From contig JAAYMA010000036.1 in the NCBI GenBank assembly GCA_012521615.1, forward strand, positions 1 to 50,240: 50,240 nt of DNA, given 5' to 3'. Shown one piece after another: positions 27,403-36,624 of the stretch. The notes under the pieces were generated by a model, which did not search any database, was not told the DNA's origin, and worked only from the letters and a program-made list of their open reading frames with translations. The DNA is from Clostridiaceae bacterium (GTDB taxonomy: Bacteria > Bacillota > Clostridia > DSM-8532). Position 1 is the stretch's first letter. Each line of letters begins with the position of its first letter. The translations under genes were made by a program, and so were the position numbers.

Positions 27403-28350
27403 TCATCCGGACTTTATCAAATCATCAAGAGGCACATCGAGGAAATAAAGCAACTCCATGGATAAAGTGAATATTTCATTGTTATCGGCCAGTTTCGCAT
27501 AAATTTCGTATCCCTTTACTTTTTCACTGCCTAAAAGAAGCCTTTGTATACTCTGTTCGGTTTCGAATTCAATTGCATAAGCCGGATCTTCCAACCCGTA
27601 TTTTCCAATATCCGAAGGCATTTCTTCTATAAAATTAAAAACAGCAAGATTTGAAACAAAAAATACCATAGATTCTATTTCTGACGAATCAGCGACTGCC
27701 TGGTGAACAGGTCTTATTATTTCCCAATTACCATTCTCTGTCCTTTTTGCGACAAAAACTGTTTTACCACCGCGTTCAAGTGAAAATCCATGAATTTCTT
27801 CCGGCAGGACATCAAATAGTATTCTCTGTCTGATGTTTTCTTTTTTGGATTTGAACTGGTCTCCGATATATCCACCAATAGTAAATATCCTGCTGTCTCC
27901 TTTTACTTTTGCATAATAATTGTCATTTGTGGGTGTAAGATCGCCGATTTCAAGAGTTTTCTCCGTTCCATCATCTAATCTGACCGTTATTGTGGAAGGG
28001 TCGTCAAGACCATATAGTTTGACGTTCTCTTCATTATCTTTAACAATTTTCAATGCAGTTAAATTCGAGAAATATTCGGCAATCATATCAATAGTGTAGT
28101 CATTTACTCTCATACCTTCAGGGAATATTGACGTCCATTTGCCCTCTTTCCTTTCAAGTTCAAATCTGCTATCACTGTTTACTATGGTAATATGCGTTAT
28201 GCTGTCAGCATCAAAATCAAATATAGCAATTGTATTATCAACATTTTCCGGTTTCATTTCAACCTTAGTTCTTTTTCCTGTTGATCCCCATACAAGTACC
28301 AGCGCAATAATCATAAATGCGAGTATAACAATATTCCGGTACAGTTTCAT
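27403..28350 (-). CDS. DUF4340 domain-containing protein
   Basis: A 315-residue protein with one N-terminal membrane segment (IVILAFMIIALVLVWG) and an extracytoplasmic beta-rich domain of DUF4340 type. Phrases such as NVKLYGLDDPSTITVRL and DIGKYGLEDPAYAIEFET show the internal repeat usual for the family. DUF4340 proteins regularly follow GldG-type proteins in ABC export clusters. That is the case here, where the start overlaps the gldG-like stop by 4 bp (ATGA), so translation is coupled. The molecular role of the family is not established. Confidence 0.88.
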   Translation of the reverse strand: MKLYRNIVILAFMIIALVLVWGSTGKRTKVEMKPENVDNTIAIFDFDADSITHITIVNSDSRFELERKEGKWTSIFPEGMRVNDYTIDMIAEYFSNLTALKIVKDNEENVKLYGLDDPSTITVRLDDGTEKTLEIGDLTPTNDNYYAKVKGDSRIFTIGGYIGDQFKSKKENIRQRILFDVLPEEIHGFSLERGGKTVFVAKRTENGNWEIIRPVHQAVADSSEIESMVFFVSNLAVFNFIEEMPSDIGKYGLEDPAYAIEFETEQSIQRLLLGSEKVKGYEIYAKLADNNEIFTLSMELLYFLDVPLDDLIKSG

Positions 28351-29786
28351 AAATGTCTCCTCCTTAAGTAGACAGTTAAACCTGAAGCGAAAATAATAAT
28401 GGGAAGTACTATAACAAATAGCAGCGCCAGAGTCATAGCCTGTTCTTCTGTTATCATTATTCTTTGAGCCTTGTATGTCTTAGGAATTATTAAAGTGTCA
28501 TTACTATTGTCAAGCATCCAATTCAATGCGGTAAGGAAAAAGTATATACCGTTCTGAAAATAAATATCATTATATAATTCTGCTGTGTCGCTAATAAATG
28601 AGGCATTACCTATTACGAGCAATTTTGATGTTTGTGAGTTACCTGTTTTTTCAACAGCCACTGCAAGGTCAAGAGGACCCGGAATATTGTTTCCTCTGTT
28701 TGTGTCAATCTGTTCCCCTGTAGCATGGGTACCTGTTTTTATAAGAGATATAACCTTCGTGTTTTTTTTGTTGGATTTAAGTATATTTATACTTCTTGAA
28801 TCTTCCAGAAGTACGTTGAAACTTTCGCTGAACAACTCATTTTGCTGCACATCACTGAGAATTACATAAGGATCGCCTGGAATATGCCTGCTGTTATCGT
28901 TTTCTTTTACTTTATCATAGTTGAGCGAAATGTTATAATATTCCAGAAGTTCATTAAATCTTGAAAAATCCGGATCGGTTTCAAGCGAATCGAAAAGCAT
29001 AATGGCTTTTCCTCCGTTTTTCAAATAAACACTTATCTTTTCCTGTTCCGAGAAACTAATGTCTTTCTGTGGAGAGGCAATGACCAGAAGCTCCGAGTCA
29101 TCAGGAACTCTTTCCACTGTCAGCAAATTTATTGTTTTGACATCATAATTGTTGTTTTCGAGATAATATTTAAAAGAACTGTAATCCTCAAACAGAGAGT
29201 TTTCATCATGCCCTTCGGTAAAATATATTACGGGTGTATTGTCGGAAGAGACATATTTTATAGCACCGGTGATTTTTTGTTCCGCCGTGGCTGGGATTTC
29301 CAGGTCTGCATATAATTCATCAAGAGGGACATATGTACTTAACATGTCATAATAATCGATACTTTTTATTTTTTCCCCGCAGACAAACACAAAATCCCCT
29401 CTGCTTATCTGTAATCTGTTGTCAGGATCAAGTTTTTTGATGAATCCGGGATTCATGTCAGGATCGACATATTCTACCTTGATACGGGGATAAATTTCAT
29501 ATTGATCCAGAAGCTCGATTATTTCTATGTAATAATTCTTAGCCCCTATTTTTCCATCGTCGAAGATACCATATATGGTAACATCCCTATCCAGACTTTC
29601 AAGTAAGCTTTTAGTAGTTTCTCCAAGTGAAAACAGCTTGCTCGGTGTCAAGTCAAATTTCAGGGAAAGATTTTCAACAAGTAAATTGGCCAGTATTATG
29701 GCGAGAAGCGTTATACACACCAATACAACAGAGTTTGCGCCATATTTAAGTCTTCTGCTTCTTAAATATTTGAGTATCTTATCCAT
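28347..29786 (-). CDS. GldG-family ABC-type transport auxiliary protein
   Basis: A 479-residue protein with an N-terminal membrane segment (about 18-40), a large extracytoplasmic domain of the GldG/ABC-2 auxiliary type (DVTIYGIFDDGK, KVEYVDPDMNPG, PVIYFTEGHDENS), and a C-terminal membrane helix (about 450-473) ending in RRRH. Such proteins work with an ABC-2 permease and an ATPase in gliding or uncharacterised export systems. It starts 14 bp after the permease and overlaps DUF4340. The expected ATPase gene of this cluster is missing here, so whether the system still works is doubtful unless an ATPase is supplied from elsewhere. Confidence 0.9.
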   Translation of the reverse strand: MDKILKYLRSRRLKYGANSVVLVCITLLAIILANLLVENLSLKFDLTPSKLFSLGETTKSLLESLDRDVTIYGIFDDGKIGAKNYYIEIIELLDQYEIYPRIKVEYVDPDMNPGFIKKLDPDNRLQISRGDFVFVCGEKIKSIDYYDMLSTYVPLDELYADLEIPATAEQKITGAIKYVSSDNTPVIYFTEGHDENSLFEDYSSFKYYLENNNYDVKTINLLTVERVPDDSELLVIASPQKDISFSEQEKISVYLKNGGKAIMLFDSLETDPDFSRFNELLEYYNISLNYDKVKENDNSRHIPGDPYVILSDVQQNELFSESFNVLLEDSRSINILKSNKKNTKVISLIKTGTHATGEQIDTNRGNNIPGPLDLAVAVEKTGNSQTSKLLVIGNASFISDTAELYNDIYFQNGIYFFLTALNWMLDNSNDTLIIPKTYKAQRIMITEEQAMTLALLFVIVLPIIIFASGLTVYLRRRHL

Positions 29787-29800
29787 TACTCTTACCCCTC

Positions 29801-30700
29801 CTAACTCCAGCGCCTTTTTTCTATAACCATAACCGTAAGGGTAATAAACAAAATGATAAAACTGAGATAATATACCAAATGTTCAATTTTAAAAAGTCCA
29901 AGATTGAAAGATTCATATCTTGAAATCAATGATAGCCATTTAAGAATTCTTGACACGCCTCCTCCCACTACATTTGCAAAGCTGCTACTAATCCAGATAA
30001 TAAGCAAAATCACAAAAGACAGGCATGCAGATATAATCTGATTTTTAGTGAGTGATGAGGCAAAAACTCCGATTGATATATATGCAGCGCCAAGAAATAT
30101 GAATCCTGCATACCCTCCTAAAAGCTGCGCCGTAATTTTTCCGCCAAAAGCAAGTAATGAAAGAGGAAATATGAATGAAATAATGGTGAATATCAGGAAA
30201 ACCGTAAGAGCAGCCAGATATTTGCCTACTACTATACTTGCCAAACTTATGGGAGATGTGAGCAGTAGTGCCTCTGTACCGTTTTTCCTTTCTTCAGAAA
30301 GAATACGCATTGTGAGAACGGGGATTATAAATATCAGAACTACACCCATTGATGCAAGAGTATTGTTAAAGTTAGAACTTTCCATGAAAAGATTGTTTAT
30401 ACAAAACAATATTGCTGATACAAGCAGAAACAAACCGCTGAAGATACATGCAACTGGTGAAGAGTAATATGATTTGATCTCTTTCAGATATACCGTAAAC
30501 ATGTTTGTCATCCAACCTCCCTCGTGAATATATCCACATACGGTACAACGCCATCTGGCCGATTTTTGAGATTGATTTGAAGTCGAAGATTCCTCCATTA
30601 ATATAAATTGACTTTTTTCAGCCTTGCATACAGGACATTCTTCGGGTGGTTCATTTCCGGTATGAACAAAATTGCAAACTTTACATCTCCACTTTTTCAT
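29801..30700 (-). CDS. ABC-2 permease (GldF-like) joined in frame to a rubredoxin-domain N-terminus
   Basis: An open frame of 299 residues. Residues 1-33 are a rubredoxin-like zinc/iron knuckle (WRCKVCNFVHTG, then CPVCKAEK). Residues 49-61 begin a second copy (RWRCTVCGYIHEG) that stops abruptly. From Met64 (30511) the sequence is a complete GldF-type ABC-2 permease of 236 residues with about six membrane helices and the usual LSEERKNGTEALLLTSP motif. GAGGGAGG lies just before Met64, so the permease can also be translated alone, and I think that is the functional product. In comparable clusters an ATPase gene precedes the permease; here none does. The fusion therefore looks like a deletion scar. 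Confidence 0.85.
   Translation of the reverse strand: MKKWRCKVCNFVHTGNEPPEECPVCKAEKSQFILMEESSTSNQSQKSARWRCTVCGYIHEGGWMTNMFTVYLKEIKSYYSSPVACIFSGLFLLVSAILFCINNLFMESSNFNNTLASMGVVLIFIIPVLTMRILSEERKNGTEALLLTSPISLASIVVGKYLAALTVFLIFTIISFIFPLSLLAFGGKITAQLLGGYAGFIFLGAAYISIGVFASSLTKNQIISACLSFVILLIIWISSSFANVVGGGVSRILKWLSLISRYESFNLGLFKIEHLVYYLSFIILFITLTVMVIEKRRWS
30512..30700 (-). pseudogene. Truncated tandem rubredoxin-domain gene (5' fragment)
   Basis: This stretch encodes one complete rubredoxin-like domain and the first eight residues or so of a second (CTVCGYIHEG), after which homology ends at the permease ribosome binding site. A normal second domain would continue with an acidic-Pro segment and another CxxC. 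The shared GAGGGA at the junction could have guided a microhomology deletion that removed the rest of this gene together with the ABC ATPase gene. Whether it is expressed as part of the fusion is unknown. Confidence 0.6.
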
Positions 30701-31078
30701 TTACGACCCTCTCCTGTTTAATTTAAAAATTGACTTGTAAACTCATCAATAGTTTTACCATTGAATATACCTGTTATATGTCCTGTTATATTTTGCCTAA
30801 TAAATTATACTTTATACTCAAATATGACATAGAGATTTTTGTGCTATAAACCTAAGGGCTTAAGCCTTCAATGAAATATATCAATTTTTATGATTATATT
30901 GTTTCTGATCAGGTGGTCTGTTTCTGAAGTTCAAAAAAAGGGAATTCCCTATTTGGAATTCCCTTTTCTAAATCAAATTTTCAGGCTTTTTTAAAACAAT
31001 CTCACAAGAAGACAGCAGGAAGTATTTCAGCTTCAATGCTTCAATATAAAAATTCTTTACTATGAATAACTTTTACTT
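30701..31078. other. Intergenic region between the rubredoxin/permease frame and hypB
   Basis: These 378 bp contain no supported gene. They hold the terminator of the hyp operon near the right end, several A+T-rich stretches that could include the promoter of the rubredoxin/permease frame (TATAAT on the minus strand near 30808), and a short palindrome GGCTTAAGCC near 30857. I found no RNA gene or riboswitch. Confidence 0.5.
30933..30968. terminator. Intrinsic terminator downstream of hypB
   Basis: A GGGAATTCC / GGAATTCCC stem with a six-base loop is flanked by seven A on the left and TTTT on the right, so on the minus strand it is a stem followed by seven T. It lies 110 bp past the hypB stop and would end the GntR-FeS-hypA-hypB transcript. 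Confidence 0.8.
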
Positions 31079-35779: not shown

Positions 35780-36547
35780 TCATGAATAAGCAATAAAGAA
35801 GAGCCTTGGAAACTTAAAGATAATATTCCCGTTTTTTTGCCTGGGGTATCTTTGTATTAAGTTTTCCATTATTTCATTTTCGAATTCGTCTTTCTTATCC
35901 GCAGGTAAAACATTAAGGTAAGGGCGAAGACCAGTGCCGCGATACCATTCCAGAATGTCGTTATGAGATCTCATTACATGATAATATACAGCCTCCCAAA
36001 TATAAAATTCTTCAGATAACTCGGATAATATATCAAAATACTCGCTTGGAGTGAGAGTATGAGAAAAACGTGTGCCTGCAAAATAATCCTTCCATTTTTC
36101 AGAAGACGTAAGCTCGGCAATGATTTTATGTACCGGCGCATTGTAATTCATGGGGACTTGAACTGCCAGAACACCATTTTTATTTAATTAGTTCAACATA
36201 TTTTCTATAAGTTTTCTATGATCCGTTACCCAATGGATGCAAGCATTTGAGAAAACAATATCAAAATCGCTGTCCAATTGTGGAAGTTCACTACTTACAT
36301 CACATATTCTGAAGTTCAGGTCCGGATAATTCTTTTTTGCTGCATTGATCATATCTTCAGATTTATCAACTCCAAGGATATAAGCATTAGGGAATTTATC
36401 TGACAAAACCTGTGTACTGTTTCCCGGTCCACAACCTATATCCAGAATTTTATCAGGTGAAACCAGATTGATACGGTTTACCAAATCAATAGCAGGTTGT
36501 GTACGTTCAGTTTTAAACTTTAAATATTGTTTTGAATTCCAATCCAT
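35780..36547 (-). pseudogene. tam: Trans-aconitate 2-methyltransferase-like gene interrupted by an in-frame stop
   Basis: A SAM-dependent methyltransferase of Tam type, read as two halves in the same frame: 36188-36547 (MDWNSKQYLKFKTERTQPAI, SAM motif ILDIGCGPGNST, then FSNACIHWVTDHRKLIENML) and 35780-36187 (NGVLAVQVPMNYNAP to the end). They are separated only by TAA at 36188-36190, with no length change. Removing the stop gives about 254 residues, the family length (E. coli Tam has 252). A single base change from CAA, AAA or GAA would explain it. The downstream half also has an ATG at 36151 but would lack the SAM site. Tam methylates trans-aconitate, the inhibitor of aconitase. Confidence 0.85.
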
Positions 36548-36624
36548 AATATCACACTCCAATGAAACAGCTCTGCTATCAAATTCACTCTTAAATCAGC
36601 CGGATTAATTGCATCTATGTTGTC

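Follow-up and report, generated by a model that had tools for sequence, protein, structure and literature searches.

An in-frame junction between a tandem-rubredoxin gene start and a Gld-type permease, probably the scar of a rearrangement that truncated a second Gld-like operon at both ends

Does an open reading frame that leads from a rubredoxin-like domain straight into an ABC permease encode a new kind of transporter, or does it record an accident of rearrangement? The frame lies in a window of 50,240 nucleotides (the whole stretch of DNA analysed here, from contig JAAYMA010000036.1 of the Clostridiaceae bacterium assembly GCA_012521615.1), and by inspection of the open reading frames it runs on the minus strand from 30700 to 29801, giving 299 codons. 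The start codon at 30700 is preceded by a Shine-Dalgarno-like AGGAG. The encoded protein consists of a whole rubredoxin-like domain, half of a second one and a whole ABC-2 permease, in that order. Pfam searches of the fused protein gave 65.5 bits for RUBY_RBDX (cut-off 26.5) in two stretches, the best of which covers residues 4-32, together with 41.4 bits for ABC2_membrane_2 (cut-off 27.2) and 41.5 bits for ABC2_membrane_3 (cut-off 31.6), and the hydropathy profile showed hydrophobic segments as expected.

The first rubredoxin-like domain (residues 1-37, positions 30590..30700, minus strand) is complete, matching positions 1-29 of the 30 in the profile PF21349 with 55.8 bits, above the cut-off, and carrying the four cysteines C6, C9, C22 and C25. 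The second (residues 48-61, 30518..30559, minus strand) is truncated, and its profile match of 23.8 bits to positions 1-12 of 30 falls below the cut-off and includes the first CxxC only (C52 and C55). It stops at E60-G61, where the word GAGGGA overlaps the likely ribosome-binding site of the permease. The permease itself (29801..30511, minus strand), which continues the frame of the rubredoxin part, has its start at M64 or M67 (30511 or 30502) and is complete by Pfam and by alignment. The 299-codon frame, the Pfam matches and the permease alignment described below bear out the initial annotation, which had read the locus as a frame broken in its second CxxC domain at the ribosome-binding site of an intact GldF-type permease and nevertheless still open. 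If the rubredoxin domain is translated, the usual topology of ABC-2 permeases would place it in the cytoplasm, ahead of the permease N-terminus.

Two further genes follow on the same strand. The first encodes a GldG-like protein of 479 residues (ABC_transp_aux and DUF7088; 28347..29786, minus strand), which is full length compared with its relatives and scores 85.7 bits for ABC_transp_aux against a cut-off of 34.7, and the second encodes a DUF4340 protein of 315 residues whose C-terminus is cut (27403..28350, minus strand; Pfam and alignments). The order of permease, GldG-like protein and DUF4340 protein is that of the Gld-type operons (PF12679/PF12698, PF09822, PF14238) found on contig C80 of the same genome and in the genomes G397 and G330. 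The G397 permease was the best match outside the own genome among the matches listed in the class search; it aligns with the window permease from M67 to the end at 56% identity, and the GldG-like and DUF4340 proteins of its operon are 50% and 40% identical to those of the window. In contrast to these three operons, the one in the window has lost its ATPase gene except for the likely last codons, its DUF4340 gene is cut, and a rubredoxin part is fused to its permease. The GldA/GldF/GldG transporter has a role in the gliding motility of Bacteroidota. The corresponding families TIGR03522, TIGR03518 and TIGR03521 were the best NCBIfam matches of a relative's ATPase, the window permease and the GldG-like protein, respectively, but all three proteins scored below the NCBIfam cut-offs; the permease reached 131.6 bits for TIGR03518 against 288.5, and it is GldF-like, short of the GldF equivalog.

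To judge the missing ATPase we inspected loci of relatives. An ABC ATPase gene lies upstream of the permease on the same strand in all 45 loci taken outside the own genome from the neighbour and class searches, at most 150 nt from the permease alignment in 44 of them and at 239 nt in one, and likewise upstream in five of five further loci from the phylum search; all 50 are the best-scoring loci, not all matches. These loci agree with the expectation that GldF/GldG/DUF4340 clusters normally begin with an ABC ATPase, and the missing ATPase of the window is a real departure from the layout of Gld-type operons. A PF00005 search of the own genome listed 55 places, none of which is on the contig of the window. 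The orphan GldA-type ATPase that the initial annotation had proposed to look for elsewhere in the genome was not found; the only close one (C80:28301-29236, 67% identical, 465.5 bits, the next match having 163.8) belongs to the intact C80 operon, where it sits with a permease, a GldG-like protein and a full-length DUF4340 protein.

A trace of the lost gene is probably legible at the junction. At 30508..30522 on the minus strand, one frame off the fusion, AGG GAG GTT GGA TGA reads as REVG-stop, and the comparison with relatives points to this as the likely 3' remnant of the ATPase gene; the same DNA carries the likely ribosome-binding site of the permease. The ATPase C-termini of relatives are similar (for example KEVN, KEVI and REVN, and KEVG in G397), and their codons overlie the same ribosome-binding site. 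Of 46 relative loci (the 45 loci and C80), 32 have the ATPase stop at precisely the spacing found in the window, 5 nt after GGAGG; in the other 14 GGAGG is absent there or the spacing is different. Throughout the whole window a stop stands 5 nt after GGAGG at two of 62 GGAGG sites, and the junction is one of the two. The distance from GGAGG to the start codon is 4 or 13 nt here, depending on which of the two possible starts is used, compared with 8-10 nt in the relatives inspected. GGAGG would be conserved for its role in ribosome binding in any case, which leaves the position of the stop and a few codons to carry the test. The ATPase remnant is supported by these comparisons but not proven; the break was probably in the last codons of the ATPase gene, with the junction at about 30518-30523, for which the evidence is good, though not conclusive.

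The other end of the operon is also damaged. The DUF4340 protein of the window has 315 residues, compared with 461 to about 500 in ten copies from nine other genomes and C80, and it ends where the ten aligned copies run on, the similarity stopping near 27409-27414. Against a query of 475 residues it covers 1-321, whereas the C80 copy covers 1-468. The DUF4340 domain itself was detected by Pfam with 139.5 bits, and the protein falls short of full length. We searched the genome for the missing tail and found no match outside the C80 copy. Together with the missing ATPase, this leaves an operon fragment that is cut at both ends.

We also considered where the rubredoxin part came from. Residues 1-61 of the fusion are 54% identical to tandem-rubredoxin proteins on two Negativicutes-type contigs (L039 and L040), 48% identical to a protein of G482 (L199), and 44% identical to a triple-rubredoxin protein (L159) of G022, a genome of the same family as that of the window. 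From their sequences we take the first three to be tandem-rubredoxin flavin reductases and L159 to be a triple-rubredoxin FAD/NAD oxidoreductase. The fusion shares with these enzymes two rubredoxin domains at a similar spacing, but only half of its second domain is present, and the permease stands in place of the enzyme part. A search of the genome with the part of the L039 protein beyond residue 61 gave no match to a flavin-reductase remainder, and a motif search of the window revealed no convincing candidate for what is missing from the rubredoxin gene. Contig C105 of the own genome encodes a distant FAD oxidoreductase (34%).

The explanation that we favour, with a probability of about 0.7, is that the locus is a rearrangement scar, in which part of a second Gld-like operon, having lost both its ends, has come to follow the 5' part of a tandem-rubredoxin gene. 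A piece of about 3.1 kb (27.41-30.52 kb) from a second ABC operon of the GldA-GldF-GldG-DUF4340 type would have been broken off in the last codons of the ATPase gene on one side and, on the other, after roughly two thirds of the DUF4340 gene. Its ATPase end would have been joined to the 5' end of the rubredoxin gene, the reading frame being kept by chance, with odds of 1 in 3. The rubredoxin promoter would now transcribe the fragment, and translation of the permease may begin at the rubredoxin start, giving a fusion with a cytoplasmic rubredoxin-like domain, or at the ribosome-binding site that the permease has kept. Lacking its own ATPase, it would be inactive or would borrow that of C80, and the fragment is probably decaying. 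Counting against a scar, the permease, the GldG-like gene and the shortened DUF4340 frame contain no stop and no frameshift, so the fragment would have to be young or still in use. The base composition gave no signal of foreign origin, the GC content being 0.36 in the fragment and 0.36-0.38 in the C80 operon. Read as a scar, the locus offers a readable case of accidental gene fusion in which the likely remnant of the lost neighbour is legible at the junction, and a warning that a single genome is too little to declare a rubredoxin-ABC permease a new domain architecture.

The initial annotation had proposed a simpler history, in which a complete operon followed a rubredoxin gene and a single local deletion took out both the remainder of the rubredoxin gene and almost the whole ATPase gene. 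The loss of the ATPase stands, and the probable break in its last codons fits this proposal as well, as does GAGGGA, which could have been common to both parents; the single local deletion in an array of rubredoxin gene and operon gained no support in that form. A tblastn search with fusion residues 1-60 (E 0.01) found no rubredoxin near the operon in any of 20 regions, of which C80 contributed one and other genomes 19; 17 of the 19 reach at least 4.7 kb upstream beyond the permease, and the other two reach 2.5 and 1.0 kb. Moreover, the truncation of DUF4340 at the opposite end of the operon would require a second event. In the window hypB adjoins the rubredoxin start. It has matches in six of 14 genus genomes, own included; in the two whose hypB is most similar (G013 and G004) the genes that come next encode a membrane protein and a small regulator. 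We therefore regard the local deletion as unlikely, although it is the strongest of the alternatives. Compared with ten genus loci, the DNA similarity on the hypB side begins at about 31085 and that on the other side ends within the gene of a methyl-accepting chemotaxis protein (MCP), and the span in between has no counterpart in the ten. The MCP neighbourhood gave no relative against which to place the 3' break, as the similarity to the genus loci ends within that gene.

An assembly error that joined two unrelated sequences near 30520 appears somewhat less probable again. The assembly comprises 133 contigs, and the own genome is the only one in which the join was seen; both would agree with such an error. 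Against this, any sequence common to the two sides of the junction would span about 6 nt, much too short to mislead an assembler, and both flanks have close genus relatives (hypB 91%, MCP 68%). In addition, an operon ATPase, a flavin-reductase remainder and a DUF4340 tail were not found on the other contigs except for the intact C80 operon, in a genome whose completeness is given as 99.94%.

We searched for fused relatives in four overlapping genome sets, each of which includes the own genome: 61 genomes near it, 32 of the family, 391 of the class and 398 of the phylum. Matches were found in 349 of the 391 class genomes (E 0.001) and 73 of the 398 phylum genomes (E 1e-12), counting the own genome and rubredoxin-only matches. 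Among the matches listed from the four sets there was no relative in which rubredoxin and permease are fused, so that the conserved fused protein that would have spoken against a recent deletion did not turn up; the nearest permeases are only 56-57% identical, and no permease match listed begins before query residue 15. The early-starting matches in G539 (residue 15), G402 (23) and G050 (30) were rejected as fusions, their reading passing through stops, and those in G014 and G016 were rejected for stops inside. Two kinds of stop-free match start at the rubredoxin end and run past the junction. A match of G452 to residues 1-160 is a protein with rubredoxin, flavin-reductase and rubrerythrin-like parts, and the Treponema matches L042-L045 and L047 to residues 1-95 combine rubredoxin with a ferritin-like part; neither has a permease in frame. 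A scan of genome contigs gave 33 loci, 32 of which match the rubredoxin end and one of which (Catonella) matches part of the permease at 26%. The literature searches made here, judged by titles, yielded no rubredoxin-ABC permease fusion. The potential redox-domain/transporter fusion of the initial annotation has only the open frame and the intact domains in its favour.

A working permease that is redox-gated or redox-anchored, with a cytoplasmic rubredoxin-like domain that senses or passes electrons and a putatively borrowed C80 ATPase, is thus very improbable, for although no stop interrupts the frame at the junction, the four cysteines of the first domain are kept, the permease is complete and a close GldA-type ATPase exists on C80, no fused homologue occurs among the matches listed, the second domain is halved with two of its four cysteines, the permease retains its own ribosome-binding site, and no ATPase lies alongside. 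That the chimera actually works as a permease with a cytoplasmic one-iron redox domain, putatively powered by the C80 ATPase and redox-responsive in its transport, we hold to be slightly more improbable still; were it produced and used by the cell, redox state and transport would be coupled in a new manner.

Some minor observations were made in and around the locus. Direct repeats that flank the fragment (27348/30724 and 27224/30599, spacing about 3376) were considered as the scar of a duplication or insertion and rejected: the best alignment of the two fragment flanks was equalled in 5 of 300 plain shuffles, and the DNA is AT-rich. Between hypB and the rubredoxin start, at 30935-30972, an inverted repeat around GGGAATTCC was recognized by eye, possibly the terminator of hypB; it is listed as direct repeat D11 and is absent from the terminator scan. 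The G452 protein with rubredoxin, flavin-reductase-like and rubrerythrin-like parts (L198, on G452:C9) adjoins another rubredoxin-like gene. In seven of the regions from relatives (L139, L140, L143, L149, L151, L153 and L155) a P-type-ATPase-like protein of about 900 residues is encoded upstream of the Gld-like operon, and in six of the seven an MgtC-like protein is present; both labels are presumptive, having been read off the sequence starts only. Elsewhere in the window, at 35780-36562 on the minus strand, the adjacent frames 36562-36188 (Methyltransf_25) and 36151-35780 (no Pfam family) resemble two halves of one methyltransferase gene split by a stop or frameshift, the latter frame presumably being its second half.
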